Shown: one piece after another, positions 1,776 to 27,515 of the stretch
How positions within the stretch are numbered: the first letter of the stretch is position 1
How the letters are laid out: each line of letters begins with the position of its first letter
IMG/VR virus record: IMGVR_UViG_3300035698_005926
Coordinates: 1 to 50,391 of that record
Strand: one strand, 5' to 3'
DNA from: a virus
Length of the DNA stretch: 50,391 nt
The notes under the pieces: model-generated
Database searches by the model: none
What the model saw: only the letters and a program-made list of their open reading frames with translations
Told to the model about the DNA's origin: nothing
Translations under genes and position numbers: made by a program

Positions 1776-3992
1776 TTATAAAATAGTTAAAAGGGAGGAT
1801 GCAATATCAGCACCCAGAGTTGTGTATCCTGCCGTTGTAAAATGCAGCTCATCCCCTTGTAACGCATTCCCTTCACTATCAATATTCACTGAGTTAGAAA
1901 CAGTGTAAGCTGATTCGGCAGTCTGTATTTCATTCCATGTGTTTTCAGGGAATGTACCGTCCATAAATGATGGTTTATCATGCAATATAACACGAGCAAT
2001 AGGGAAATCAGTTCCAGCAAAACCCCTTAACCGTGATGCCAGTGCCACACTTGCCGTTGAGAATAACGATGAAGAATTACCTTCCACACCATCGGTAGCC
2101 CCTTGATTCCAGATCATTGCGCGTATTGTGCCTATGGATAGCGCCTGTTTTACCCTTTGAATTAAGCAGTAAACAGACTCGTGTGTCGCTATCTTGTTGT
2201 TTCCTATATCCTGATCCATGTACCATCCCTCACGTGGGACAATAATACCATTAGCCACGGCACTTCCTGTTACGCTATCTGTGATGGTTTCATCATCTTC
2301 AAATACACCGCTTATATTTGATAGCCATAAACTTCCAGTCGTTCCACCATCGGTATCTTCTACTATGATAGCAGTAGCACCAGAAGTTCCACCAGTTAAA
2401 GTTGCTCCGGCTGTGAAGTTAGCAGATTGAGCATCATATAATAGATTTGCAGAGTATATCATACCAGTACCGCCCTTATTCACAGGGACAGCAACCCATG
2501 TGCCGCCTTCACTGTCAATAATATCATCGAGAACCGTACCGACATAACCATTACCCGCAGATGAATCAGAAAGAAAACCAAACTGCTCACTTGTGACATC
2601 ATCATATGGCTCAGAGAATGCCTTCAATACAGCATCGTTTGCCAATAATTTTATAGATGCAGCGTTGGTTAATGTAGGATCTGCGTCAGCACCAAGCCCA
2701 ACAGAATTAGACTGTAGACCCGCAAGTACCATATTATTATTGGCATCATAAGAACCAGAAACGGGAGGTACATTTTCTGAATCTCTTTCAAATATAGATC
2801 TTCCGGGATGCTTTGAATAATATTTCACTGACCTTATCCAGCCATTAAACGGAAGTACACCAGAGGCGAAAGAACCGAAAACAACACCATACGAAACATC
2901 TGCCGGCATAGTTGCAAGAGTTAATTTCAACACTTCAATGCCATTGATAGATATATTACAGAGGTTTTCTCCCCAAGAGATAGATATCTTCTGAATCCCG
3001 CCACCAACAGCAATCGCGTCACTATCGAATGTGTAATCCATATACTCAGTTCCGCCAGACGTAACCCTGAACAACAAATCCCCATTAGTATTTTTAAATA
3101 CGGCGATGCGATTGTTAGAGTCGGAAGCGCCGAACTGGAATAAAGTTTGAAGAGCGGGTGCGCTACGTGGGTACAGATCCTCATACTCTATAAGTATAGC
3201 CCCTGAATTGGCAGATAGTATAGCTGGCGTACTATCTTTTAGCTCAGGAGCAGAACGTGTCGCACCTGTAGATCCTGTTGTTATTATAGGACTGGATACA
3301 ATATTGCCCTCTTCAAATTGAACAGCAGCAATGTGAACAGTGTTACTTGCTGTAACGTACAGAGACATATAACGAGCCGTATTATTAACTGCAAAATCTT
3401 CTTCTGTTATTTCTTCCCACGCCCCACTTACCGCCGTGAAATTATTCAGTGCAGGCCCATTGCTTAACTTAACATTCCCTTGATATCCAGTGGATTGAGG
3501 GGAAGCCAAAATACGGTAAGAATGATTATTTAGATTTCCTGTATTTACGGAAATTCGATATTGAGTTCCCGCAGTCCCCCCCGTGAGGGCTATAACATCG
3601 CCATTCTGAAGATCAGAGAACAGCGCCCCCGTCAGTGTCGCTGTGCTGATACTGGAATCCGTGACCACACTAGCAGAGCCATCGCCCGAAGTCGGAACTA
3701 TACCCCCTATTCCAGTCGGGGCAAAGTTCGCATGATTGGATTTATTAACAGACGTTTCTTCAATTCTTATGCCCCGCGCAACACCAGATGAAGTGTGATC
3801 TATAAGCTCCTCATTTGTGGTTGCTTCTTGCATAAGGCCACCATCGTCTATGTAAGTAGCAACCGCATCTGCGCGTGTATAAGTGATATCAGCATCCAAA
3901 GCAGACAAAAATGAGTAGTCTTTCGTTGTGACTCCTGATCTTAATCCCCTAGATACAGAAGATAGCCGCGCTCTTTCTCCTGATCTTAACAT
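1776..3992 (-). CDS. tail fibre with SGNH/SASA-type carbohydrate esterase domain
   Basis: A 738-residue fibre protein. Residues about 265-395 resemble a concanavalin-like (LamG) beta-sandwich (ILIEYEDLYPR, NGWIRSVKYYS). The C-terminal half carries blocks of the sialate O-acetylesterase (SASA) type of SGNH hydrolase: LAGLQSNSVG with candidate nucleophile Ser428, WNQGATD at 628-634, and DELHF with Asp714 and His717. Between blocks I and III sits a roughly 68-residue beta-rich module (516-583) also found in the tailspike near 22446. The likely role is deacetylating host surface sugars during adsorption. The ATG overlaps the upstream stop (TAATG). The blocks are clear; substrate is unknown. Confidence 0.75.
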   Translation of the reverse strand: MLRSGERARLSSVSRGLRSGVTTKDYSFLSALDADITYTRADAVATYIDDGGLMQEATTNEELIDHTSSGVARGIRIEETSVNKSNHANFAPTGIGGIVPTSGDGSASVVTDSSISTATLTGALFSDLQNGDVIALTGGTAGTQYRISVNTGNLNNHSYRILASPQSTGYQGNVKLSNGPALNNFTAVSGAWEEITEEDFAVNNTARYMSLYVTASNTVHIAAVQFEEGNIVSSPIITTGSTGATRSAPELKDSTPAILSANSGAILIEYEDLYPRSAPALQTLFQFGASDSNNRIAVFKNTNGDLLFRVTSGGTEYMDYTFDSDAIAVGGGIQKISISWGENLCNISINGIEVLKLTLATMPADVSYGVVFGSFASGVLPFNGWIRSVKYYSKHPGRSIFERDSENVPPVSGSYDANNNMVLAGLQSNSVGLGADADPTLTNAASIKLLANDAVLKAFSEPYDDVTSEQFGFLSDSSAGNGYVGTVLDDIIDSEGGTWVAVPVNKGGTGMIYSANLLYDAQSANFTAGATLTGGTSGATAIIVEDTDGGTTGSLWLSNISGVFEDDETITDSVTGSAVANGIIVPREGWYMDQDIGNNKIATHESVYCLIQRVKQALSIGTIRAMIWNQGATDGVEGNSSSLFSTASVALASRLRGFAGTDFPIARVILHDKPSFMDGTFPENTWNEIQTAESAYTVSNSVNIDSEGNALQGDELHFTTAGYTTLGADIASSLLTIL

Positions 3993-4353: not shown

Positions 4354-7300
4354 TTACAATCCATATATTTTTTTTATCTCTTCACTTCTTGGCCTCGCTT
4401 GCTTCCTTACGCGTTTTGCATCCGACCCTTGCATTTCTTCACGAAATTTCATTTTCAATGTGTGAGGCCTGATAATTATACGCTTGTGAAGCGGTGCTGT
4501 TTGATTATGGCGATTTATTTCATCCATAATTGATTGATAAACAGCTTGCATTGCCCTTGATTCTTCTTTTTTTCCTTCGGAAGAAAGCCTATTTCTTTCA
4601 GAAAGTGCTTTGGCAAGCCTTTTGTAATAGCGTGAACGAAGTTCATTAACCGCAGACGAAGCCCGATTTATTGCATACCCAGCCTGTCTTTCTTTAGATA
4701 TTTTAGCAGAAGTAAACCCAAAGAATTTAAGCGTGGCATCTGTGTTCGTTACTTTGTCAGAATCAATAACTTTTTTGCCCTTTCGTGTTCTTACACCATC
4801 GGTAGACCATTGATATGCCTGCATTGGATTACGCATAAATGCAGGTGCTATTTCGGATACTGCCCTCATAACATCACCCTCGTTCGCATACCCAGCAGCA
4901 CGAACTGGGCGCTCATAAAGCATATCATACCATACGCCAAGGAAATCAGATGTATTGTCAGGCGCAACATTACCGAACCCCAAACGACCAGATAAATCAA
5001 CATTCATCATTGAAGCAGGAATACCCCTGATTAGAGTTTCTGCCACCATCGGATTTGTTTTACTTGCAATAAAGTCGTGAACATCTGTTTCTATGTCAAA
5101 GTCTTTTCCTGTGGCGAATTTGTAAAGCCCCTCTATCAAGTCCTGTAAATCATCCTCAAACGGCAACCCTTTTAGTCCTGCAACCGCCACAACAGCGATA
5201 ATCATTGAGGCTAGAGCAGCTTTATTCTTACCACCGTTTACTTTTCCAAGGCGATACATAAGCTCAAGAGTTTGCATTTGGAATGACAAGAACTGGAATA
5301 CCAATGTTCCATACCCACGGGCAAGCTGTGGCCTGTTATTTTTACCAAGACGGTACTGTGTCGAGATAACAGAAAATTCAGCAAACGCAAAGGCGAAATC
5401 TTCGTTTGTCTGTTTTCCGCGTATCATTGACTGACCAAACTCGTCATTTTTCATGAATGCCTCAATCGACTTCTTATTTTTAGGATCAAGAGCAAGTCTG
5501 TATGCCGATATGAATGTAACAACACGGTTCATTTTTTCAGGAACAGAGAACGTTAGGGCTATGGTTTCTGCCGCCAACCTCTTTTTCTTGGAAAGCCCAC
5601 GCAAAGCCTGTGTGTTGCTATTTGAAATCGCCATAGCATCATTCGTTGCCAAAGATAAGAAGTCACCTTCGTTATATGCCTTTTCAAGAGCATCGCGCAC
5701 ATCTAATGGTGCTTTGTCAAAAGAAAGCATTTCAAGCCCGTTTTTGAAAGTGAATACTCCCGCAGAGTCTTTATATGCTTTCGTCATTTCTGTGGCTATC
5801 TTAGCATGGGAAAACATCCCTTTGAAAAATGGCGCTGTTACCAACAATGGCTGTGATAGGTTCATGACACCAGACGATACATTACCTGCAAGATACCAGA
5901 AAAATCCCATCATACGGATTGTTGCCATTTCTTCCTTCGGATCATTCACATAGTCATGATACTTAACGGCGTATTGGTGCAAGCCTTTCTTTCCGCTATC
6001 AGCAACAGAACTCACCGCAGATTCAATGTTCTTTTCATGTAACCTGCGTGATATATATGATGAAACGGACACAACATAATCATTTATTCCACGTTCAAAG
6101 TCAGGGCTATATCCTGAAACATTACGCGATTGAAAGAAGTGGGATCTAAACCCTTTCTTTTGCATTTCGCTCTGTATGAGAGAACGGAATTTATTAATGT
6201 CAGCAGTTGGTATATTGCTCCCAGAAACAAGCATATCAAACTCATGTAAATCAATAAATGCTGCAGACTCGCTAAACTTATTCATTTCAAAAAAGTTTAT
6301 GTCATAGCCATTTTTATCGTAGTCCTTTAAGAGCCTGTCCAGCGCATCTGCCTTGGCTTTGCTAACAGCTTTATTTTTGTTTAATGACTTAGGCACTTCT
6401 ATTCTCTCAAAATGAACAACCTCACCGTCAACGTCCTTGACAGATACCCCTATTTCTCCCCAACGCTTGAATGGGATATAGCCCGTCCGTTTTGCATCAA
6501 GAACATCATTTATTTTTTCTAAGATGCCTTTGATGTCCCGAACATCGTGGATGTTGTTTGTTTTCTTTGCTTTTTCAAGGGATATTTCAATATCTTCTAT
6601 GCTTTTCGCATCGTCACCAAGAATGTATTTGTTTTCTTCTATGATGGTTTCGATATATTTATCGAGAGCGTTGTCCATAGATGTTCGCACGCCCAAGTAT
6701 GCAGCGGTTTCCGCAGGTGACAACATAATGCTATCACCGTTACTCGAATGAACCGTCTTTTCATCAAGGTCATTCTCAGCAAAAATATTACCAGCATCGT
6801 CTTTTGAATATGTAACACCCTTCAATCTTCCAATCTCAAGAACAGCATTCACGCTTCTCTTGGATTCCGCATCAAGGTTGTTGTAGGGATCAACAAACTT
6901 ACCTAGTTGGTGAACGAGTATTTCACGCGCTTTAAATCTTTCAACAACGGCGCGGTAAACAGGTGTAAATTCCTTAAATAAAGAAGCTATGTGATGCGGG
7001 TGAAGGATCGCAGCCGAAGCCCCGTTCAAATCCTTCATTACACCTTGATCAAGGCCGCGCACATTTGCGAGTAACTCTGTGGCTTCTGTCAACGCTTTAT
7101 TCTTATTCTTTCCAAGCTTATATTTAGGGAAATTAGTTTGGCTGTTTTCTTCTTGTGATGGCTTCTTTGCTCTTTCCGCAATATAGCCACTCTCAACCGC
7201 TTCAAGAACTGTTTTGGCATCATCAAAATTGTAAGGTTTTCCACGTAAAATATCAGAAACATCGCGGATAAACTTCATTGCCCTATTCGCTATTCTTCGG

Positions 7301-10300
7301 ATAATACCTTTGTTGGCCATGTCTTGAAACGCAAATGCAATAGCTTCTTCGTTAAGCATAGACTCAAGGCGAACAGGATCGGTAATGCCCTGCTCTTTAA
7401 TCATTATTTCTTTGTATTTATCATCAATCTTGTACTGCTCTCTCCACTTGGAAACGGCTCTATCTTCAAGGATCTCCCATTCATTTTTAGTGAATGCTCC
7501 GGCGGCTTTTAAGGCGTGGATTAGCTCATGATCGAATGTTCTAAGAACATCTTTCGTATCCATTGCAACATTAATAATGCCCTTCCAGTAGAAACCTTCA
7601 ACAAGATCATTGAATCCCGGCAAGTGCGACATATCCTTATTATCAAAGAAATTAAAATTTGCTTCATCCCATCCGCGCTTTTTCATTCGTTCCGATAGTT
7701 GATCAAGGATTTCCTCACTCTTATTTTCGCTATACGAATATTCTTGCTCATCATCACGAATATAAAATGATGGATTGTTAATATCCTGCTTATTAGTAGC
7801 CCAATACTCCAATGGATAATCATCATAGAATATCTCAACTGGTGCGTTCTTGCGTAAATCTCCTTCAATCTCCACAAGCTCATTACGCTTTCTTTTAAGT
7901 TCATCGGATTTCAGGAATTCGTCATTAATCTGACTTTTCAGAACAGTTATTTCACGCTCTGACTTCTGTATAGAGAATTCCGCATTTGATTTTGCTTCTT
8001 CCAATTTGTTTATAGCGTTATTCAGCCTTGTTATAACCCCAGAACCATGAAAAGAAGCGTTCTGTATTGACCACGATAAAATAGGGTTTCTGAATGCTGG
8101 ATTTTTTATAAATATCTCATAAGAGCTTTCAATATTGCTAACACTAGCAAACATATTGACATCAAATCCACGGTACTCGGCTATTTTAACACCGTCTGTA
8201 GGCGTTGACTCGTTTTTACTTATCAGCACACCAACGGAATCTTGCAAAGCCTCACCAGCATCAGAACGCTCCGCATGTGCCTTGTTACTTACAGTCATTA
8301 GGAATTCATCTTCTTTGAAGCCCTTCTTTGTCTTTAATGCAGAATTAATGTCTTTTATGTATTGGGTCTTATCTAAAATACTATTACCGTTCCGTGAAAT
8401 AGACGTTTTGACTTGAACCTGCTCGTTGACAAAGTTTTTAGCCTGTCTTGCAAGCTTATCAACATCTGACTGTAATTCAGCTTGTTTCAAAACACGCGCA
8501 TCACCAGATGTCATTGCCTTTGCCATGCGGAAGTGATCCGTTTCCTCAATATCTCGCATAGATGTTAAGTCGGTATCACCTTTTAAGAATTGTATGATTG
8601 CCTTTGCCTTAGTCTCAAGCATCCCCCACATAGTTGAATCGTATGATCCTTCTGTACCATACCCATATATTTCTACTTCGCCATACTGGTTTCCTTGGCG
8701 CAATGCACGCCCTGTTCTTTGCTCAAGGTCAGCGGGTAGCCACGGCGCGTCCAAATTGTGAATGGCTTTAAGTCTATTCTGCACATTAAGTCCTGTACCC
8801 ATTTTTGATGTCGATCCGATAAGAATCCGCACTTCACCATTTCTTACTTTGTTTTGTAACCGGCGCTTTTCTTCCGTGGTGTCAAAATCAGATATAAAAA
8901 CAATTTCTTCGGCCTTAACGCCCATACGAATTAATTTCCTGCGAATATGTTCATAAGCTGAAAATGATTGCCCGTCTTTAGTACGCGAACGAATACCAAG
9001 ATCAGAGAACACAAGCTGTGCACCACCTTTGACTTTTGATTTGCGATCATCGCCCCTGTACTGGTTTTTAAAGGTATCATTTGCTGTGTCTTTGTATATT
9101 TTATATATACCAGAAATCATATCTTCAAGCTTGGACGGTGTTTCAGGAAGAGAAGGATCAATAAGTCGCATATCAATGGCTGCGTGCCTACCCTCATTAA
9201 TGATAGCCAATATATTATCAGAGCCTTTTTGATTTGAACGCTGATTGGCAATTTCATTTGTTCTATCAGCTAAGTATTTTTGAAACGCCAAATACTCTGT
9301 AGATGGAGGCGTGGTTTTAATAATCATTGTTCCTGATTTCATCGTTGGACGATCCACCAGTGTCCCAAGTTCATCATTTGTCACAACATCCATAAACTGA
9401 CGTACCATTTGCGATAAAGAGTTCAAATTTCTAAACTCTGCCAATCTCGTAACATTTTTATAATTACCTGAAGGTTGGCGTTCTGCGTTTGTAACACTCG
9501 CCGCATAAACAGACGACCATGCATCAAAAGTGGCTATACCTCTTGTTTCAAGATCATCCTCATTCATAAATCTTTGGATGGTGTAAACTTCTGCAAGCGT
9601 GTTGGTAAGTGGCGTACCGCTTGCCAACACGAGGTTATTGTTGTGATGGATGGTATTAAGGTACTTTGTTTTCATGTAAAGATCCCACGCAGCCTTAGAG
9701 CCTGTGGGTGTAACGCCTTTAACATTACCCTGCATAGTACCGAATGAAAGCTTTCTGAAACCATGTGCCTCATCAACAAGAATTGAATCCACTCCAAGCT
9801 GGTCAAAAGAGAATCCCTGGTCTTTGCTTTTTGCTTTAAGGCCACTGATTTTTTGCTCCATTTTCTCAATCTGCTTTTCAATTCTTGCCGCAGTTGAACC
9901 GCGCCCAACTGATCCAGAGTTATTGGCTACAATCAATGCTGTTTTATATTTAGCAACTTCTGAAGCTGTCATTTCAACTTCAAATTCCGCAGAAACATCA
10001 ATCCTAGAGAATGACGAGTATGTCATAATTACAGCATCCCAGTCACCTTTAGCAACATTAGCTACAAAGCGTTGGCGCTTATCTGCGTGGAAGTTTTTTT
10101 CATCCGCAACAAATATCTGTGCCTGTGGGTACGCCGCACGAAACTCCCCTGCGAACTGTGCCAACATATGATTCGGAACTACATATAATGGTTTCTTCCA
10201 CACACCAAGTCGGCGCATTTCCATTCCAGCAGATACCATAGCAAGTGTTTTACCTGCGCCAACGGCATGTGCCATGTAGGTGTTACCAGTTTGTAGAACG

Positions 10301-13300
10301 CGCCATACTGCGTTCTTTTGGTGAGGCCTAAGATCAATAGTTGACGCAACAGTTATATGTTTTCCGTCAATTTTTCTTGGAACAATATTGTTGTACTCTT
10401 TGTTATAACGCTGGTGAACTGTTTCGGCATGGCTTGATTTCCATATCCAATCGTCAAACTTAGATTGCATTTCTAAGGCTTTATCATGCGCCGCTTGTGT
10501 GGCGTTTATATCAACAACATTCTTTTCACTTTCATTTTCAATTATGGTTTTTGTGACTTTTATTTCCTTACGCATAAGAAGGCTAGTCAATATATCATCA
10601 GCGTTCTTCTTGTCCGTACCAAATTGTGTCGTGTTCTCAGTGGAAGATTTATCAGAAACTCTTACTTCCCAGTTATTAACAATGGCAGAATATGACACTT
10701 TCGCACTCATATTAAGCTCTTCTTTTATGAAGTCAGTTATGACCGCTGGCTTAAAATAAGGAGATCCAAGTTGAGTGTTGATATCACTTGCTGGAATATC
10801 ACTAGGCTGCACAGCTTCTAATGAATCAACATTCTTTTGGTACTTCCTGTCTATTGATACCAGTTTTCTCGCATATTCAAGTTTTGACTGGACATCACCA
10901 CTTAAATATTCCTCTGCATATACATACAGCTCACCACCTTCATAGCTTGGTATAGCGAACACAAGGTCAAGATCTTCAAGATCTTGTGCTATGCTGTCTT
11001 TGTCCCTGCCGAGTTCTTTAGACATTAGATCAAAATCAAGGCCGTTTGTGTGCGCTAAAGAATAATTCATAGAATCAACGGCTGTTTCTATCTTTGGCTT
11101 GATAACTTGAGCAACAATATTCTTCTCAAATACATCAGTTTTTCTCGCGGTATCCGTGTCTGCATCATAATTCTCAAGAACAATGAAATTGTAATACTCT
11201 GGATCAGCTTTAAAAGCGTCCATGTTAGGATATGTTATTGTCACATTATCAGGAACAGATGATGGATCAAAATCACCTTCGTCAACTATTCCCCCCGCAT
11301 TTTCTATTTTTTGCTTCTTATCTTTTCTAATTTTTCCGATTTGAGCAGATGTGTATCTCTTGCCTGTATCGGGATTTAAACGCCCAATAATATTGGTTAA
11401 ATCAATATCACCTTCGTTGAAATCTTCATCAGCAGCCATAAAGTCATTACGCATGGCATCACGATATTGTTCCATGAGTGATCCAGACGGAGGGCGTGAT
11501 TTTGTTTCTGATTTTGTTACTGGGCCATACTTCTTTACGAAGGAATTATAGCTTTTTTTGAGCTTATCTTGCTCTTCTTTCATTTTGGATGTGTTCTTCG
11601 ATACCATAGCATTCAATGAATTTCTTAATGAATCTCTGATAGGAACGAGAAGTTTTGCTTTTTCTGCTTCTGTTCTTGTTAATCCGCCAGTGGCTTTCCC
11701 ACGCATAGGGGCAGGTTGCCCTATGCCATTCTCAACCTGCATTAACTCACCATCTTTAATATAGTAAGATCCGTCTTTTTCTTCCACGGGTGTAAAGTCA
11801 AGACCAACAGATGATTCCTTCTTTATTTCGCCAATAACATTCTTCGGAAGATTGTTTACAACATCGGATAACTGCTTTTCTAGGGTTTCGTTATTTGATG
11901 GATTGACGGTAAGCGCCTTTTTAGAGCTATACCCTGTACTTGTTGTTCCGTAATCACCAAGAACCATTTCGGGATTGTTAATGAAATACTCGTTAATACT
12001 TATGCCTTTTCCATCATCATCCGTAATATCACTTTCTTTTGTGTTCACCCACTCAACGCCATTGCTTTTTTCATCACCAATGCGCTTTCTTAAAAATATA
12101 ATATCGGTAACAACATCAGTGTGAGCATTGGCTTTGAATGCGGTGTTAGGCAACCGTATAGCACCAATAAGGTCAACTTTTTCAGACATAGCTTGACGCG
12201 CTTCCACGCCCAAGGAATCCATAGAAAAACGACTTGTGACAAATCCAATTAAGCCACCTTCAGCAACCATATCTATGCTTTTTGCGAAAAAGTAATTATG
12301 AAGAGATAGGTTTTTGTAGTCCTTATCTCCCTTTACTTTGGAATCACTGAATGGAGGGTTTCCAATGGCGGCATCAAACATACCGTCTGCATATTTTGCA
12401 GATATAAAGTCAGCATTGCGAACACTGGTTTTTGGATAAAGAAGAGCCGCAATACGAACACTCATAGGATCAACTTCAAGGCCAGAATACTGCATATTCA
12501 TGCTTGATGGAATCATACCGGCAAAATTGCCAATACCCATGCCCGGCTCAAATACAGATCCTTTTTTAAGGCCAAACACTTCAAATGCTTTCCACATAGA
12601 CCTTGTTATGGTTTCAGATGTATAATGAGCGTACTGAATGGTTTTATTTGACTGCCTGTATTCCTCTGGCGATAGAATATCTTTGATTTCAGATACAATA
12701 TTTCCCCAACCGTCTTTTGCATTGCCCTTGCCATCTGGGAATGAATTTTTAATACTTCCCCATCCTGTGAATGTAGCAAGCAAAGATTGTTCCTCTGGTG
12801 TCGCAAGCCTTCCCTCTTCCTCAATTTTTTTAACGAGCTTAATAATCTCAATATTATCTTGCGCTTTTTTCTTTTGAGAACGGGATTCGGACAAGTCACC
12901 AGCCGCAATAACATGGTTTCCACCAAACTCCTTGAACGGCTCTACTCTGGCGGGAACTGTATCATTGTTGCGAACACTATCTCCGTTGCTATCGTTTCCG
13001 CTTGATTTCGCTGCATCTTCTTTGGCATCACTAATAGATAGTCCACCTGCGCTAAATAGCTCTCCTGTGCCTCCTGCGTCACGCTTTTTAGGTGATTTTT
13101 TAGCGACTTTTCTTTTATCATCCTTCGGTATAGTTTCGGTGCTTTTTCCGACATCGATTTTTGGTACGCTTGTTGAAACCTTTGATTGTTGAACACTTCC
13201 ATCGGAGTCCTCCTTTTTCACTAAGTCTTTTAAAATAATAGATGGTAGGTTTTTAAACACAAAGTCACCATCAAACAAATAATACTCGGCACTATCAAGC

Positions 13301-16128
13301 GTTGCTTGAGGATATTCCTTTGTCTTTGCGTCTATCTCTTGTTGAAACTGTAATGCGTTAAAATCATCGCCACGAGACTTAGCCTCTGCGAGAGCATTGG
13401 AGAGCAACCAATCTTGGATACGGCGAACAGTAAGCGTTACTTTGCGCGATGATCCCATACCCACACGCGGGAATGGCGTTGTCGCGCGTCCCGTGGACGT
13501 GAGGACAACTTCACCTTCAGCAAGCTTAATTCCAACCTCACCTTGATTAACAGAACTCACCTCTGTTTTATTTAAATCAGTATTTCTTGCCGCTTCAATC
13601 GCTTCTTCTTCTGTCGAGAATGTCTGCACTCTTAAAACATGTTCTCCATTTCTAATTGCTCCGTATCTGCCTTCGGATATTTTTTCAGCACTATATTTCA
13701 CAGCACCAGTTTTATCTTGTTTGTCAGCCTTGCTAGGGTTCTTAGGTTCAGTAGGTGTTTTTACAGCAGTAGTATCCTGTTTCTTTTCAGGTACTTGCTG
13801 TATGTTGGCGAAATCTGTTTCGTTGACATCAAAGGCTTTGATCTCGACATTCGTGTCGTCAGCAGGTTCTTTGGCAACTTCTTCACTCCCGCTTTGGACA
13901 GGATCAATAGCAACTGATTCCGCACTCGGTTGTTGTGCGTTGACGGGTTCGGCAATATCGCGTTGAACAGGGCTAGGATTAACATCTTCATCTGTAACCT
14001 CTTTCTTGATTTCTGCTTTTGGCTTTTTATAATGAATAGCATTTTTTGTGTCACCATTTTTAAGCCAATCTTTAAATTCTGACGCACTCATTACAGCAAC
14101 CATGCCATAACGATCTGCTGCTCTACCATCAGAGAATGCGGCATTATAAGCTCTTGAAGCCTCGCGCACATAATTAAACCCTATAAAAACTTTGTGCTCA
14201 TCGAACTCTTTGGTATCAGCGTCAATCTGATCTACGATAAACACTTTATCAGAAGATGGGTTATCACCGATATAAACATCGACATGATCGCCATCTGCGC
14301 CCTCTGTACGCTTGATATATCCGTAATGCGCTGGCATTTGCACCGACCACTTTTGTCCATTACTATCAACACCATTACGCTCTGAACCTTTGGGGTTTTC
14401 AATCGTAATAGGTAAGCCTAGAACGGAAACATGGCCTTTCTTATACGTGCCACTTTCCTTTTGTGCTTCTGTGGGCTGTGTGTTCACATCCTGTGCTGCA
14501 GACTCGATATCAACTTTCGCAGGGATATCCCATTCAGGGAAACGCGCATTAAGCTGATCTTTTATTTTCTTCTTTTGTGCCCTAATAAACTTATTTGCAC
14601 CGCCCGATTTCGCCTGATCGTTGGCAACGGCAAGAGATTTCGTGAGCTTCTCAAGAGACATTTGTTCATATTCATCTTCATCATCCACTGGCTTTTGTGG
14701 ACGCGGCTGCATCTGTGGTTGCTGCACATCGAACATTTGTTCATCAGGTGCGACTGGTGTTGTTTCAGTGGGAATCTCTTGCACCGCATTTGCGGTATCA
14801 TCCACCGCACTTGCGGTAGGAATATTTGACACGATATTGCCATCAGTGGTGCTTAAAGTTTTCAGTCCACCATCTTCATCAAGGATAGTAACTTCAATTC
14901 CATTATCTGTTATTCCTGCATCTGTGACCGTTCCCGATACAACTTCACCATCTTTGGTATTTACCTGTTCAACCTGCGCTCCAACAACATATCCTTGACT
15001 CGTTAATAACGGATCAATATCAACCTGTGGTAATTCAATAGACTTGCTTTTGGCAATCGGTGTTTCGTCATTAATCGCCGCCGCAAGATCATCTTTGTTC
15101 GTTGGCACTTCTACCTGTGATACTGGCTGCGGAACATCTTCTGGCGCAGTGTTTGAGCCATGCACTGCCTTATTTAAGGTATGCATCGCACCAGTCTGCA
15201 TACCAACTGCCAATACAGTCGTCCCAAGCGTCATTGCCTGATCAAACGGGATAGAGTCGATGTACTCACCAAATGTTAAGTCACCTTCATTGATATATGA
15301 GTAATTAGCAAATCCCTGCACCAAGGAAGCAACTTGCTCACCCGGAACTTCTGCTAAAATCTGGTGTCCCAAGGTTTTAAACAGTGAAGAGCCAGCTTTC
15401 AAGTCAAATAGCAACTTTGCAGTTGGGATTGCCTCTGTAGCTGCCTCTGTACCGCCTTGTATCAAGCCATAAATAAGAGACACTGAATTTGAGTTACCTG
15501 CCTTTTTTGATTCCGCCGCGCCTAGTCCACCAGAAACAACACCCATCTGCCCCAAAGCAAAACTAGGGTTTCTTGTGAGAACGGATGCAACAGTCCCAGC
15601 AAGACTCATCCCTATTGATCTTGATGCAGCGCTTAAAAGTTTCTGATCAAGTGTTGCGCCTTCGTTAATTTCTTTTGACGCTTCATCAGAAAGGCGTTGG
15701 TTTACAATTTGACCACGATGCGCGAAATTTTCAAGAACGCGAACAGGGTTCATATTATTGTATTCAGATGTGGCTGTGACAAATTCAAGGCCTTGGTCAA
15801 CTTTATCTGCTGCGTTGGCTGCTAGAATTTCCGCTGCGCCATAAACGCCCCCAAAAGTGTCTGTGGTTAAACCAGTAGTGAATGACTTACCCATTCTATT
15901 TACGGTATCAATACTATGATCGACATAATCACTCGCCCGACCTAATAATCCTTGGCTTGGCTCTGTCTTTACTTGTTCAGGATTAATCTCAATGGCATTC
16001 GCTTCCCAACCACCACTGTTTTCAGGTTGTTCAATACCAATGCCCGTATTACGCTCTGGAATAGGCGCAGAGGTTTCAAGACTCGAAGAATCTTTCTTAA
16101 TCTCAATAGCGTTATCTTCCCATGCCAT
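4354..16128 (-). CDS. giant polyvalent protein: InPase-like, DNA methyltransferase, SNF2 helicase, metallopeptidase
   Basis: One uninterrupted 3924-residue frame, start MAWEDNAIEI. Domains in order: Gly/Ala-rich, partly hydrophobic N-terminus (1-330); inorganic-pyrophosphatase-like polyvalent domain near 560-680 (HYGYIKRTEGADGDHVDVY); adenine methyltransferase near 1130-1320 (FEPGMGIGNF at about 1196, NPPF at about 1257); SNF2-type helicase near 1940-2510 (VGAGKT, DEAH, QRTGRALRQG); zincin-like metallopeptidase near 2830-2950 (HELIH at about 2866 with a downstream EEAIAF); polyvalent-associated C-terminal region with YGTLVFQFLSF and a hydrophobic stretch near 3640. Such proteins are known to travel with injected DNA and shield it (compare P1 DarB). 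Its place at the end of the ejection-protein block fits that role. Confidence 0.85.
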   Translation of the reverse strand: MAWEDNAIEIKKDSSSLETSAPIPERNTGIGIEQPENSGGWEANAIEINPEQVKTEPSQGLLGRASDYVDHSIDTVNRMGKSFTTGLTTDTFGGVYGAAEILAANAADKVDQGLEFVTATSEYNNMNPVRVLENFAHRGQIVNQRLSDEASKEINEGATLDQKLLSAASRSIGMSLAGTVASVLTRNPSFALGQMGVVSGGLGAAESKKAGNSNSVSLIYGLIQGGTEAATEAIPTAKLLFDLKAGSSLFKTLGHQILAEVPGEQVASLVQGFANYSYINEGDLTFGEYIDSIPFDQAMTLGTTVLAVGMQTGAMHTLNKAVHGSNTAPEDVPQPVSQVEVPTNKDDLAAAINDETPIAKSKSIELPQVDIDPLLTSQGYVVGAQVEQVNTKDGEVVSGTVTDAGITDNGIEVTILDEDGGLKTLSTTDGNIVSNIPTASAVDDTANAVQEIPTETTPVAPDEQMFDVQQPQMQPRPQKPVDDEDEYEQMSLEKLTKSLAVANDQAKSGGANKFIRAQKKKIKDQLNARFPEWDIPAKVDIESAAQDVNTQPTEAQKESGTYKKGHVSVLGLPITIENPKGSERNGVDSNGQKWSVQMPAHYGYIKRTEGADGDHVDVYIGDNPSSDKVFIVDQIDADTKEFDEHKVFIGFNYVREASRAYNAAFSDGRAADRYGMVAVMSASEFKDWLKNGDTKNAIHYKKPKAEIKKEVTDEDVNPSPVQRDIAEPVNAQQPSAESVAIDPVQSGSEEVAKEPADDTNVEIKAFDVNETDFANIQQVPEKKQDTTAVKTPTEPKNPSKADKQDKTGAVKYSAEKISEGRYGAIRNGEHVLRVQTFSTEEEAIEAARNTDLNKTEVSSVNQGEVGIKLAEGEVVLTSTGRATTPFPRVGMGSSRKVTLTVRRIQDWLLSNALAEAKSRGDDFNALQFQQEIDAKTKEYPQATLDSAEYYLFDGDFVFKNLPSIILKDLVKKEDSDGSVQQSKVSTSVPKIDVGKSTETIPKDDKRKVAKKSPKKRDAGGTGELFSAGGLSISDAKEDAAKSSGNDSNGDSVRNNDTVPARVEPFKEFGGNHVIAAGDLSESRSQKKKAQDNIEIIKLVKKIEEEGRLATPEEQSLLATFTGWGSIKNSFPDGKGNAKDGWGNIVSEIKDILSPEEYRQSNKTIQYAHYTSETITRSMWKAFEVFGLKKGSVFEPGMGIGNFAGMIPSSMNMQYSGLEVDPMSVRIAALLYPKTSVRNADFISAKYADGMFDAAIGNPPFSDSKVKGDKDYKNLSLHNYFFAKSIDMVAEGGLIGFVTSRFSMDSLGVEARQAMSEKVDLIGAIRLPNTAFKANAHTDVVTDIIFLRKRIGDEKSNGVEWVNTKESDITDDDGKGISINEYFINNPEMVLGDYGTTSTGYSSKKALTVNPSNNETLEKQLSDVVNNLPKNVIGEIKKESSVGLDFTPVEEKDGSYYIKDGELMQVENGIGQPAPMRGKATGGLTRTEAEKAKLLVPIRDSLRNSLNAMVSKNTSKMKEEQDKLKKSYNSFVKKYGPVTKSETKSRPPSGSLMEQYRDAMRNDFMAADEDFNEGDIDLTNIIGRLNPDTGKRYTSAQIGKIRKDKKQKIENAGGIVDEGDFDPSSVPDNVTITYPNMDAFKADPEYYNFIVLENYDADTDTARKTDVFEKNIVAQVIKPKIETAVDSMNYSLAHTNGLDFDLMSKELGRDKDSIAQDLEDLDLVFAIPSYEGGELYVYAEEYLSGDVQSKLEYARKLVSIDRKYQKNVDSLEAVQPSDIPASDINTQLGSPYFKPAVITDFIKEELNMSAKVSYSAIVNNWEVRVSDKSSTENTTQFGTDKKNADDILTSLLMRKEIKVTKTIIENESEKNVVDINATQAAHDKALEMQSKFDDWIWKSSHAETVHQRYNKEYNNIVPRKIDGKHITVASTIDLRPHQKNAVWRVLQTGNTYMAHAVGAGKTLAMVSAGMEMRRLGVWKKPLYVVPNHMLAQFAGEFRAAYPQAQIFVADEKNFHADKRQRFVANVAKGDWDAVIMTYSSFSRIDVSAEFEVEMTASEVAKYKTALIVANNSGSVGRGSTAARIEKQIEKMEQKISGLKAKSKDQGFSFDQLGVDSILVDEAHGFRKLSFGTMQGNVKGVTPTGSKAAWDLYMKTKYLNTIHHNNNLVLASGTPLTNTLAEVYTIQRFMNEDDLETRGIATFDAWSSVYAASVTNAERQPSGNYKNVTRLAEFRNLNSLSQMVRQFMDVVTNDELGTLVDRPTMKSGTMIIKTTPPSTEYLAFQKYLADRTNEIANQRSNQKGSDNILAIINEGRHAAIDMRLIDPSLPETPSKLEDMISGIYKIYKDTANDTFKNQYRGDDRKSKVKGGAQLVFSDLGIRSRTKDGQSFSAYEHIRRKLIRMGVKAEEIVFISDFDTTEEKRRLQNKVRNGEVRILIGSTSKMGTGLNVQNRLKAIHNLDAPWLPADLEQRTGRALRQGNQYGEVEIYGYGTEGSYDSTMWGMLETKAKAIIQFLKGDTDLTSMRDIEETDHFRMAKAMTSGDARVLKQAELQSDVDKLARQAKNFVNEQVQVKTSISRNGNSILDKTQYIKDINSALKTKKGFKEDEFLMTVSNKAHAERSDAGEALQDSVGVLISKNESTPTDGVKIAEYRGFDVNMFASVSNIESSYEIFIKNPAFRNPILSWSIQNASFHGSGVITRLNNAINKLEEAKSNAEFSIQKSEREITVLKSQINDEFLKSDELKRKRNELVEIEGDLRKNAPVEIFYDDYPLEYWATNKQDINNPSFYIRDDEQEYSYSENKSEEILDQLSERMKKRGWDEANFNFFDNKDMSHLPGFNDLVEGFYWKGIINVAMDTKDVLRTFDHELIHALKAAGAFTKNEWEILEDRAVSKWREQYKIDDKYKEIMIKEQGITDPVRLESMLNEEAIAFAFQDMANKGIIRRIANRAMKFIRDVSDILRGKPYNFDDAKTVLEAVESGYIAERAKKPSQEENSQTNFPKYKLGKNKNKALTEATELLANVRGLDQGVMKDLNGASAAILHPHHIASLFKEFTPVYRAVVERFKAREILVHQLGKFVDPYNNLDAESKRSVNAVLEIGRLKGVTYSKDDAGNIFAENDLDEKTVHSSNGDSIMLSPAETAAYLGVRTSMDNALDKYIETIIEENKYILGDDAKSIEDIEISLEKAKKTNNIHDVRDIKGILEKINDVLDAKRTGYIPFKRWGEIGVSVKDVDGEVVHFERIEVPKSLNKNKAVSKAKADALDRLLKDYDKNGYDINFFEMNKFSESAAFIDLHEFDMLVSGSNIPTADINKFRSLIQSEMQKKGFRSHFFQSRNVSGYSPDFERGINDYVVSVSSYISRRLHEKNIESAVSSVADSGKKGLHQYAVKYHDYVNDPKEEMATIRMMGFFWYLAGNVSSGVMNLSQPLLVTAPFFKGMFSHAKIATEMTKAYKDSAGVFTFKNGLEMLSFDKAPLDVRDALEKAYNEGDFLSLATNDAMAISNSNTQALRGLSKKKRLAAETIALTFSVPEKMNRVVTFISAYRLALDPKNKKSIEAFMKNDEFGQSMIRGKQTNEDFAFAFAEFSVISTQYRLGKNNRPQLARGYGTLVFQFLSFQMQTLELMYRLGKVNGGKNKAALASMIIAVVAVAGLKGLPFEDDLQDLIEGLYKFATGKDFDIETDVHDFIASKTNPMVAETLIRGIPASMMNVDLSGRLGFGNVAPDNTSDFLGVWYDMLYERPVRAAGYANEGDVMRAVSEIAPAFMRNPMQAYQWSTDGVRTRKGKKVIDSDKVTNTDATLKFFGFTSAKISKERQAGYAINRASSAVNELRSRYYKRLAKALSERNRLSSEGKKEESRAMQAVYQSIMDEINRHNQTAPLHKRIIIRPHTLKMKFREEMQGSDAKRVRKQARPRSEEIKKIYGL

Positions 16129-25872: not shown

Positions 25873-26295
25873 TCAACGGGATTCCCATACCTTATTTACA
25901 AAATCTTTACACGCATTACGCTCAAGCCTTAACTGCTCGGCATCTGCTCCGTACTCGAAAAGCCATTGACTGCTGATTCCATTGTTTTGAGCATGTCCTG
26001 CCCTTGGCTTTCTTTTAGGATAAATGACGGACGACTTGGTAACGGGGATACATTTTGAGGGTTGCAAGCGCAGCCGCCTAATATCGTCATTAAGCTTATC
26101 AATATTATTCTGGTATTCATGCGTTGCCCTTTCATTAAGCTCTATGTTTTGTGTATAGGTTTCTATGGTTTTTGAAGCCATAATGAGATCACTTGAAGTT
26201 TGCCTATGGCTGAGGGTTTCGTATCTCCAAAGGCCAAAGAAGAAGCTTGTTGATATAAAAAGAACTAATGCAGATACGCCAAGAACTTTAATCAC
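25873..26295 (-). CDS. i-spanin (Rz-like)
   Basis: A 140-residue protein with one N-terminal membrane segment (residues about 4-22, VLGVSALVLFISTSFFFGL) followed by a periplasmic coiled-coil-like region (IETYTQNIELNERATHEY, NNIDKLNDDIRRLRL), the layout of lambda Rz. Spanins fuse inner and outer membrane in the last step of lysis. GTG start at 26295 with GGAGG 6 nt upstream; it overlaps the endolysin gene by 8 nt. A second lysis gene is nested inside it in another frame. Confidence 0.8.
   Translation of the reverse strand: MIKVLGVSALVLFISTSFFFGLWRYETLSHRQTSSDLIMASKTIETYTQNIELNERATHEYQNNIDKLNDDIRRLRLQPSKCIPVTKSSVIYPKRKPRAGHAQNNGISSQWLFEYGADAEQLRLERNACKDFVNKVWESR
25929..26120 (-). CDS. o-spanin lipoprotein (Rz1-like), nested in i-spanin gene
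   Basis: A 63-residue reading frame lying wholly inside the Rz-like gene in a different frame. The start MNTRIILISLMTILGGCACN gives a short lipoprotein signal with lipobox LGGC, followed by a Pro/Ser-containing chain (PLPSRPS). Nested outer-membrane spanin lipoproteins are the classical lambda Rz/Rz1 arrangement. The upstream in-frame ATG at 26135 is less likely because it would put five extra residues before the signal. Confidence 0.75.
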   Translation of the reverse strand: MNTRIILISLMTILGGCACNPQNVSPLPSRPSFILKESQGQDMLKTMESAVNGFSSTEQMPSS

Positions 26296-26869
26296 CTATG
26301 TCCTCCTGTCCCAATCCATCATAAGGCAATTCTCTTGCCTCTTTTAAGCACGCTGGCAATAGCTTTATTCGTCTATCCCAGACACCATAACATCCATTTG
26401 ACCTTATGGAGCAATCCTTATTATTTGCACGCTTATATTTTAACGTATACTTACACGCTGCGACTGGCCTACCTGCCGCTATATTTCTCATCATTCCCGT
26501 TCTACATTTTGCGCCTGTATTATAATAAACATCCGTAAAAGCAACGTGCATTGCAGGGGTAATGTATCTTTTCATTTTATCACTATAACAAGAATATAGT
26601 TGTGCCGAATACTCCGCATACTGCACCGAGAAGAGTTGGCGGCAATATTCCTCGGTGTAGCCATCATCAAGCCGCCCCGCCATTGTCTCGCCTACACACC
26701 ACGTCTCAACACCCACAACATCAATATAATTCTCAAGAACCATTCCTTCAAATTTTTCAGTCATTGGCGCACCCACATTCGTTGAGAATGAAATAAATGC
26801 AAATACTGATACCATAGCTGCGGTTATAATACCGCCACCCGCTGCAACTGATTTTTTTCTAAATGACAT
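26288..26869 (-). CDS. SAR endolysin, GH24 lysozyme
   Basis: A 193-residue lysozyme. Residues about 8-30 form a weakly hydrophobic, Gly/Ala-rich signal-anchor-release segment (VAAGGGIITAAMVSVFAFIS). The GH24 catalytic triad E-x8-D-x5-T is present as Glu41, Asp50 and Thr56 (KFEGMVLENYIDVVGVET), with a C-terminal GVWDRRIKLLPACL. SAR endolysins reach the periplasm through the Sec system and are activated when they leave the membrane, so they often pair with pinholins. Start ATG 26869 overlaps the PAS gene stop (TGATG). Confidence 0.85.
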   Translation of the reverse strand: MSFRKKSVAAGGGIITAAMVSVFAFISFSTNVGAPMTEKFEGMVLENYIDVVGVETWCVGETMAGRLDDGYTEEYCRQLFSVQYAEYSAQLYSCYSDKMKRYITPAMHVAFTDVYYNTGAKCRTGMMRNIAAGRPVAACKYTLKYKRANNKDCSIRSNGCYGVWDRRIKLLPACLKEARELPYDGLGQEDIGD

Positions 26870-27429
26870 CAAATTAATCCTGTGTTAAAAAATTCTTTAA
26901 ACGCGCCAACAAAAAACCCGCCCATTGAGGCTGATGCTACGGCGATAACAACCCAATATTTAACCAAAAAATCCACGGCCTTTATCGTCCACGTCTGGGA
27001 GGATAGTTCCGATCCTAATATTTTTGCGTTCTGCGCCGAAAGCAATGCCCCTTTCTCGTCCAACATAATCCTCGATACAAAAAACTGAAATTCTCCCTCG
27101 TGAGATAGTGGCGCTCTTGAAACCAAAAGCACGACATCTGCTTTTCTTCCGTTCGAGAAATCGTATTTCTTCGGTAAAAGATAGAAGTCGATCAAGCCAT
27201 CTATGACCATTTGTGCATTTTTTTCGTCCAATTCCCTTAGTCCGGGAGGCGTTATATCTTGAAATCTTTTTCCAATCAAATCCGCAGGGGTGACACCCAA
27301 TAATTTGCAAAACTGTGGGTTTGCAGAACGAAATGTAAAGTCTTGATTTACTATCGCCATACCTGCAAAACTCGGATGCCAAGATGCCTTCCATGCTAAT
27401 GCCCTCTCACTGTTCGTAAGTCTATCCAA
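26869..27429 (-). CDS. PAS-domain protein with C-terminal membrane segment, in holin position
   Basis: A 186-residue protein. Residues about 18-130 read as a PAS/S-box sensor domain: FAGMAIVNQDFTFRSANPQF, LLGVTPADLIGKRFQDIT, then a YDFSNGRKADV strand and FQFFVSRIMLDEKG. Residues 158-177 form a single hydrophobic segment (KYWVVIAVASASMGGFFVGAF). No kinase, GGDEF or helix-turn-helix output domain is present. It is the first gene of the lysis cassette, coupled to the SAR endolysin by TGATG, where a holin or antiholin normally sits. Start is TTG at 27429 after a GGGGGGGA stretch. Function as a sensory holin or antiholin is an inference. Confidence 0.7.
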   Translation of the reverse strand: MDRLTNSERALAWKASWHPSFAGMAIVNQDFTFRSANPQFCKLLGVTPADLIGKRFQDITPPGLRELDEKNAQMVIDGLIDFYLLPKKYDFSNGRKADVVLLVSRAPLSHEGEFQFFVSRIMLDEKGALLSAQNAKILGSELSSQTWTIKAVDFLVKYWVVIAVASASMGGFFVGAFKEFFNTGLI

Positions 27430-27515
27430 TGCACAATCCCCCCCATCGTGCTGTTATAAAAATTAAAACGCCGATATCTAGCAAACAACGATATCAATGT
27501 TTTTTGATAATCACG
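27430..27515 (-). promoter_or_regulatory. short intergenic region upstream of lysis cassette with paired GATATC sites
   Basis: These 86 bases separate the lysis genes from the preceding gene. Two copies of CGATATC lie at about 27471 and 27489, and each contains the palindrome GATATC; the region is AT-rich. This could be an operator or promoter controlling lysis. No convincing -35/-10 pair with 17-nt spacing was found, so the call is tentative. Confidence 0.3.

Follow-up and report, generated by a model that had tools for sequence, protein, structure and literature searches.

The lysis cassette of the virus analysed here carries, directly upstream of its SAR endolysin gene, a gene for a PAS domain followed by a single C-terminal hydrophobic segment (hereafter PAS-TM), in a position that closely related cassettes fill with pinholin-like or other small membrane proteins. 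We see about an even chance that PAS-TM is a tail-anchored, PAS-controlled lysis-timing protein, which in this virus and in a kindred phage (L001) would act as the trigger itself, in the manner of a pinholin or a releasin. Lysis timing is usually viewed as an internal holin clock, and to our knowledge the known environmental inputs to it are few, namely superinfection in T4 and ICP1. PAS-TM may let the virus time host lysis by the state of the host. An earlier note on this DNA had proposed such a system as undescribed, and indeed the literature searched gave no description of a PAS protein among the lysis genes of a phage.

The window and its lysis cassette

The window, i.e. the whole stretch of DNA analysed, corresponds to an IMG/VR virus record of 50,391 bases, a single metagenomic contig that may be incomplete. 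Its gene set is podovirus-like (terminase phrog_38, portal phrog_156, capsid phrog_334), and the closest match to its major capsid protein is that of Acidovorax phage AP1 (40%), followed by the KPP25 phages (37%). The minus strand further holds an ORF of 3924 aa (4354-16128), parts of which are 46-57% similar to the L001 contig and which is comparable in size to the giant DarB-like gene of Bcep22-like phages, and a gene for a 738-aa tail protein (1776-3992), which is possibly a host-glycan esterase, its C-terminus giving a match of 5.5e-13 to SASA, a family of sialic acid-specific acetylesterases.

The features of the cassette are listed in Table 1. The coupling of PAS-TM to the endolysin through a TGATG stop/start overlap, pointed out in the earlier note, was confirmed, and the neighbouring gene has the hallmarks of a SAR endolysin: a weakly hydrophobic N-terminal segment, a muramidase domain and the E-8-D-5-T arrangement. 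Its N-terminus is SAR-like, with a basic MSFRKKS followed by VAAGGGIITAAMVSVFAFI (SAR segment, residues 8-26), and its catalytic triad is intact (E41-x8-D50-x5-T56) and invariant in the L001 endolysin, which is 57% identical. The spanins are nested, also as described before, with the Rz1-like gene lying inside the Rz-like one. A hydropathy scan of all window ORFs found no second plausible membrane-protein gene in the cassette region. A holin elsewhere is possible, for instance among the small ORFs with TM segments on the plus strand (39895, 40299 and 50118).

Table 1. Positions of the lysis cassette features in the window, with the basis for each assignment
Feature	Position	Strand	Basis
PAS-TM gene, 186 aa, TTG start	26869..27429	-	ORF; PAS above Pfam and NCBIfam cut-offs; two homologues
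Shine-Dalgarno-like stretch rich in G, 8 nt before the start of PAS-TM	27438..27444	-	Sequence
PAS domain, residues about 20-125	27055..27372	-	TIGR00229, Pfam PAS_9, PDB fold matches, conservation
Single weakly hydrophobic C-terminal helix, residues 159-177	26899..26955	-	Kyte-Doolittle scan
Overlapping +2-frame ORF inside the PAS-TM gene, putative	26960..27394	-	Codon-shuffle and control tests
TGATG stop/start overlap, PAS-TM to SAR endolysin	26867..26871	-	Sequence
SAR endolysin (Phage_lysozyme), 193 aa	26288..26869	-	Pfam 7.9e-13; phrog_7; hydropathy
Rz-like i-spanin, N-terminal TM	25873..26295	-	Hydropathy; weak phrog_739 match, E 0.034
Rz1-like o-spanin, lipobox ILGGC, nested in other frame of Rz	25929..26135	-	ORF and sequence

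The PAS domain

The identity of the PAS domain is certain. The PAS/S-box pattern previously read from the sequence scored above curated cut-offs in profile searches, in which NCBIfam TIGR00229 (sensory_box) matched residues 12-118 with 41.2 bits (cut-off 22.9), Pfam PAS_4 reached 32.7 bits (cut-off 23.1) and Pfam PAS_9 matched residues 23-108 with 30.3 bits (cut-off 27). The copies of the gene in L001 and in an unrelated phage (L002) also scored as PAS. Structure prediction agreed with this fold: when the PAS-TM model was compared to the PDB, Foldseek gave 402 matches at E <= 1e-3, those listed being PAS domains, and VIA-align gave a best Z of 9.1 over 92 residues (rmsd 2.8), here too with PAS domains throughout the matches listed, the models being of low confidence (mean pLDDT 51 and 59), because just three sequences were available, and read for the fold and not for the pocket. 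The PDB matches span residues 19-132. Among the top ones is ARNT PAS-B, a heterodimerisation PAS, and outside phages PAS-TM comes nearest to the PAS domains of bacterial sensors. The three copies are 73-81% identical in the PAS core, 44-50% in the TM segment and tail, and 25-40% in the linker.

With respect to cofactors, no LOV-type reactive Cys was found at the E-helix site, the predicted E helix (residues 56-59) being free of Cys, and the sole Cys conserved across the three copies, Cys41, lies in the predicted C helix. Similarly, no His that could correspond to the axial ligand of haem PAS domains (FixL/DosP type) is common to all three copies, H18 and H110 being present in the window and L001 copies only. 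Going by these residues, the domain is not of the LOV type and has no conserved haem histidine; non-covalently bound FAD or a metabolite is a possible ligand.

The C-terminal helix

The single TM segment claimed earlier was recovered as residues 159-177, the sole hydrophobic segment of the protein, with a Kyte-Doolittle value of 1.85 that is comparable to those of the adjoining SAR segment and of the L002 holin; about 9 residues follow it. Membrane insertion is likely but marginal because of weak Hessa sums (simple sum, best 19 residues), which are +1.7 in the window and especially weak in L001 (+4.8) and L002 (+6.2). Basic residues precede the helix, which would make N-in/C-out the likelier topology. 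The pattern Y-W-x2-I-A-x2-S-A-x3-G (Y158, W159, I162, A163, S166, A167 and G171) is identical in all three copies, read without an alignment gap, and these residues would give the helix a side of small residues like that of helices that pack together. Homology of the helix to holin TM segments was considered and rejected, as no holin matched significantly in profile searches with the C-terminus of PAS-TM. A shuffle comparison of the helix with 12 segments gave one weak lead, the TM segment of the 93-aa protein of L065, described below (P about 0.003), on which no claim is based; the L061 entry of this comparison, taken in a wrong frame, was disregarded.

Relatives of PAS-TM

Two relatives were found in IMG/VR, at 68% (L001) and about 64% (L002) identity (63-68%), and both lie in lysis cassettes; a search for PAS-TM proteins beside endolysins in other phages had been proposed in the earlier note. 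L001 shares structural genes with the window at roughly 40-73% identity, and its gene order is 4-TM gene, PAS-TM, SAR endolysin and Rz/Rz1, from PAS-TM onwards that of the window. For L002, PAS-TM is the sole gene detectably in common with the window. It lies there directly upstream of a separate holin gene, overlapping it by 8 nt; the holin is 77 aa long (phrog_14936, 1.6e-15; phrog_198, 3.6e-4) and is followed by a soluble lysozyme without a SAR segment and then by Rz. The nearest relatives of this holin in known phages are arranged as tail gene, holin and endolysin with nothing intervening, which indicates that PAS-TM is an insertion in L002. Since PAS-TM stands beside lysis genes both in the window and in the unrelated L002, its placement goes beyond chance, and by sequence comparison the gene has moved between unrelated phages while staying with the lysis genes.

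These relatives also bear on the earlier proposal of a signal-gated holin or antiholin, which a separate holin gene next to the endolysin was to refute. The window has no such gene and L001 no clear one, but L002 does have a separate holin. For the family as a whole, 'the holin' is too strong, while a membrane protein that triggers or regulates lysis is a description that suits all three members.

The 4-TM gene of L001 (175-786) belongs to a family of 192-203 aa that is found directly upstream of the trigger slot also in L064 (302-880) and L066 (1498-2100), the L001 protein being 47% and 67% identical to these copies, respectively, and having no match at threshold in phage records, PHROGs or Pfam. 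As a holin for L001 it is probably insufficient alone, since L064 carries the 4-TM gene plus a pinholin-like gene.

The family has at least three members. No further relative was found by tblastn in 50,697 phage records or by three profile-checked DNA-pattern scans, which need exact short words; a plasmid search returned general PAS proteins only, and a genome scan distant PAS pieces only. A candidate in L021 was rejected as a chance match in another frame.

At the level of fold, a Foldseek search against BFVD listed among its matches proteins of two Cellulophaga phages, one of 172 aa from phi18:3 and one of 240 aa from phi19:1, which were assigned by length to gp090 and gp108, respectively. 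The first (L052, 39102-39620) has an N-terminal TM segment and then a PAS-like region, and its gene lies two genes before the endolysin; the gene for a relative of it, phi38:2 gp11 (L057, 3411-4046), directly overlaps the endolysin gene. In phi19:1, the gene for gp108 (L055, 5203-5925) precedes a lysozyme gene by a few genes, and Ingeline_1 gp36 (L056, 3435-4037) has one TM segment and a PAS-like fold, with no endolysin annotated alongside. All four are annotated as hypothetical. The TM segment comes first in the Cellulophaga proteins, whereas it is C-terminal in PAS-TM, and homology at the sequence level was rejected for them, as they matched nothing in Pfam and profile comparison gave no significant score (hhalign P 0.09). 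From the structural matches, membrane-tethered PAS-like proteins beside endolysins may recur among phages.

Exchange of slot genes among related cassettes

A search with the SAR endolysins of the window and L001 gave six more phages, with endolysins 51-60% identical, none of which carries PAS-TM. The slot before the endolysin is filled in L061, L062 and L064 by a 2-TM protein of about 77 aa, labelled pinholin-like by size, hydropathy and position (tblastn with the L061 and L064 genes found no annotated relative), in L065 (93 aa) and L067 (106 aa) by a protein with one N-terminal TM segment and a charged helix, and in L066 by an 82-aa protein with a helix and a C-terminal TM segment, followed by a 5-TM protein. 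In BcepIL02, whose SAR endolysin is of the window's family, the gene in the same slot is annotated as a pinholin. The holin position ascribed to PAS-TM in the earlier note is thus borne out by all six cassettes and by BcepIL02. Before these closely related endolysins, small membrane proteins of four or more kinds replace one another (L061, 2666-2974; L064, 877-1113; L065, 2687-2968; L066, 2110-3008; L067, 2673-2993).

The comparison of L064 (4-TM, pinholin-like, SAR endolysin, Rz/Rz1) with L001 (4-TM, PAS-TM, SAR endolysin, Rz/Rz1) is the most direct, the flanks being matched, and judged from gene order it is a direct exchange of a pinholin-like gene against PAS-TM. The junctions are alike as well, with TAATG after the pinholin-like genes (L061 and L064) and TGATG after PAS-TM. 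The exchange indicates that PAS-TM replaces the lysis trigger, or the trigger's partner, in this slot, and it constitutes the strongest evidence that PAS-TM would do, or control, the trigger's job. The exchange of pinholin-like, one-TM and PAS-TM genes in L064, L065, L001 and the window also provides a set for comparing lysis triggers.

An open +2 frame within the PAS-TM gene

The +2 frame of the PAS-TM gene holds an ORF of 144-162 aa whose ATG is common to the three copies (Table 1; L001, 837-1325; L002, 6027-6515), the frame being open for 148, 167 and 167 codons. Under synonymous codon shuffling the mean open length was 44, 48 and 65 codons, respectively, and the observed length was attained in 0/3000, 0/3000 and 0.13% of the shuffles, the three copies being not fully independent, as their synonymous sites retain some shared ancestry. 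Control genes on the same contigs reached 77 codons at most and did not avoid stops (2331 observed, 2180 expected). At the 17 sites where a T would create a stop in all three copies, T occupies none of the 51 letters, even with 9 of the sites varying, as against 74/210 elsewhere. A conserved protein in this frame was rejected, the copies being no more similar than in the other frame. The putative ORF is possibly an embedded gene, as Rz1 is in Rz.

Role in lysis

If PAS-TM is a lysis-timing protein as proposed, its PAS domain would lie in the cytoplasm, held at the inner membrane by the single weak helix at the tail of the protein (N-in/C-out by prediction). In the window and L001 the protein occupies the place that kindred phages give to a pinholin or one-TM trigger protein, and it would be co-produced with the SAR endolysin via the stop/start coupling. 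The state of the PAS domain (ligand, redox or dimer state) would decide whether the helices assemble, and assembly could then either lower the membrane potential, as a pinholin does, or help the SAR anchor to exit the membrane, as with a releasin. In holin-bearing phages such as L002, PAS-TM would be an add-on made just before the holin. Membrane insertion, topology, oligomerisation, the effect on the endolysin and ligand sensing are what we infer, and slot position as evidence for the role is guilt by association. Only tentatively do we suggest that the domain senses a small molecule, redox or energy state and so directly gates a one-helix trigger (holin or releasin). If such signal gating is true, a lytic phage reads host physiology, as one of a recurring kind together with the Cellulophaga phages, and with a cytoplasmic sensor in the trigger slot the reading of host state before lysis becomes testable with one protein.

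A possible, if rather doubtful, alternative is that PAS-TM is an accessory regulator (an antiholin-like brake or a co-factor) that binds a holin or the SAR anchor through its helix and holds lysis back or brings it forward according to host state, the SAR endolysin of the window being freed slowly by itself or via an unrecognised holin. L002, where PAS-TM directly precedes, with its 8-nt overlap, a full holin and a soluble lysozyme, speaks for this and implies that PAS-TM is not always the hole-former; so do the fold-matched Cellulophaga proteins, whose genes have an endolysin gene and distinct multi-TM genes nearby, and the capability of SAR endolysins for spontaneous release (PMC9239132). 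In the window and L001, however, PAS-TM replaces the pinholin-like gene and is no addition to it.

That replacement in L001 also weighs against a passenger, placed in the lysis operon solely for the level of expression there, whose PAS domain would be a partner or decoy of a host PAS sensor and influence host signalling late in infection. PAS domains dimerise readily, passenger genes can occur in phage lysis regions, and the bacterial sensor PAS domains nearest to PAS-TM would suit such a role, but the same lysis-gene neighbourhood in two unrelated phages, the coupling to the next lysis gene and the position upstream, not downstream, of the lysis genes make it improbable. We also think it unlikely that the PAS fold is a ligand-free dimerisation scaffold in an ordinary timer, whose clock would be its own accumulation as in other holins: the lack of a recognisable cofactor motif (Cys41 alone in the predicted C helix, no fully conserved His) and the match to ARNT PAS-B are consistent with a scaffold, but the PAS core is conserved beyond the need of a mere spacer when set against the TM segment and tail.

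Comparison with known systems

The phage 21 pinholin S21 and BcepIL02 gp73 resemble PAS-TM in that their genes lie directly upstream of, and overlap, a SAR endolysin gene, and in having small-residue-rich helices and an expected action at the inner membrane. They differ in having two TM segments and no folded domain, as opposed to one TM segment and a 120-residue sensor domain, and share no significant sequence similarity with PAS-TM. PAS-TM accordingly has the class II pinholin position, upstream of a SAR endolysin, but not the class II anatomy (two TM, N-in/C-in), nor does it have the large periplasmic domain that accompanies the one TM segment in class III holins of the T4 T type. With T4 antiholin RI and holin T it would share the shifting of lysis time by an environmental signal via a membrane protein; RI, however, senses in the periplasm and has no PAS domain, and the domain of T is periplasmic, not cytoplasmic as predicted for PAS-TM.

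A type IIIb holin of phiKZ was reportedly presented by Manohar et al. in 2026, and we take phiKZ gp142 to be this protein; gp142 gave no match to the PAS-TM profile. As described in PMC13056207, the type IIIb holin has one TM segment, N-in/C-out topology and a globular cytoplasmic domain, an anatomy that PAS-TM would fit, its own topology being predicted from the charges around a weak helix; no PAS domain is reported for the phiKZ holin, in which the two differ. The Mu releasin gp25 (DUF2730) likewise has one TM segment and a cytoplasmic domain, and frees a SAR endolysin without a holin, in dependence on Lys6 and Lys7 of the endolysin N-terminus; its family is also found beside soluble endolysins (PMC9239132). 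Like PAS-TM, it goes with a SAR endolysin that has a basic N-terminus, and the MSFRKKS start of the window endolysin resembles the Mu case, a likeness that is suggestive only. In contrast to PAS-TM with its C-terminal TM segment, gp25 has an N-terminal one (N-out/C-in), no PAS domain and a gene downstream of the endolysin, and the DUF2730 profile did not match PAS-TM at E up to 1. Together, Mu gp25 and the phiKZ holin as so described lend plausibility to a trigger built of one helix and a cytoplasmic domain. Finally, PAS-TM lacks the HAMP, signalling and kinase output domains of Aer-type bacterial sensors, but it shares with them a cytoplasmic N-terminal PAS domain followed by a membrane anchor, and Aer responds to energy state.
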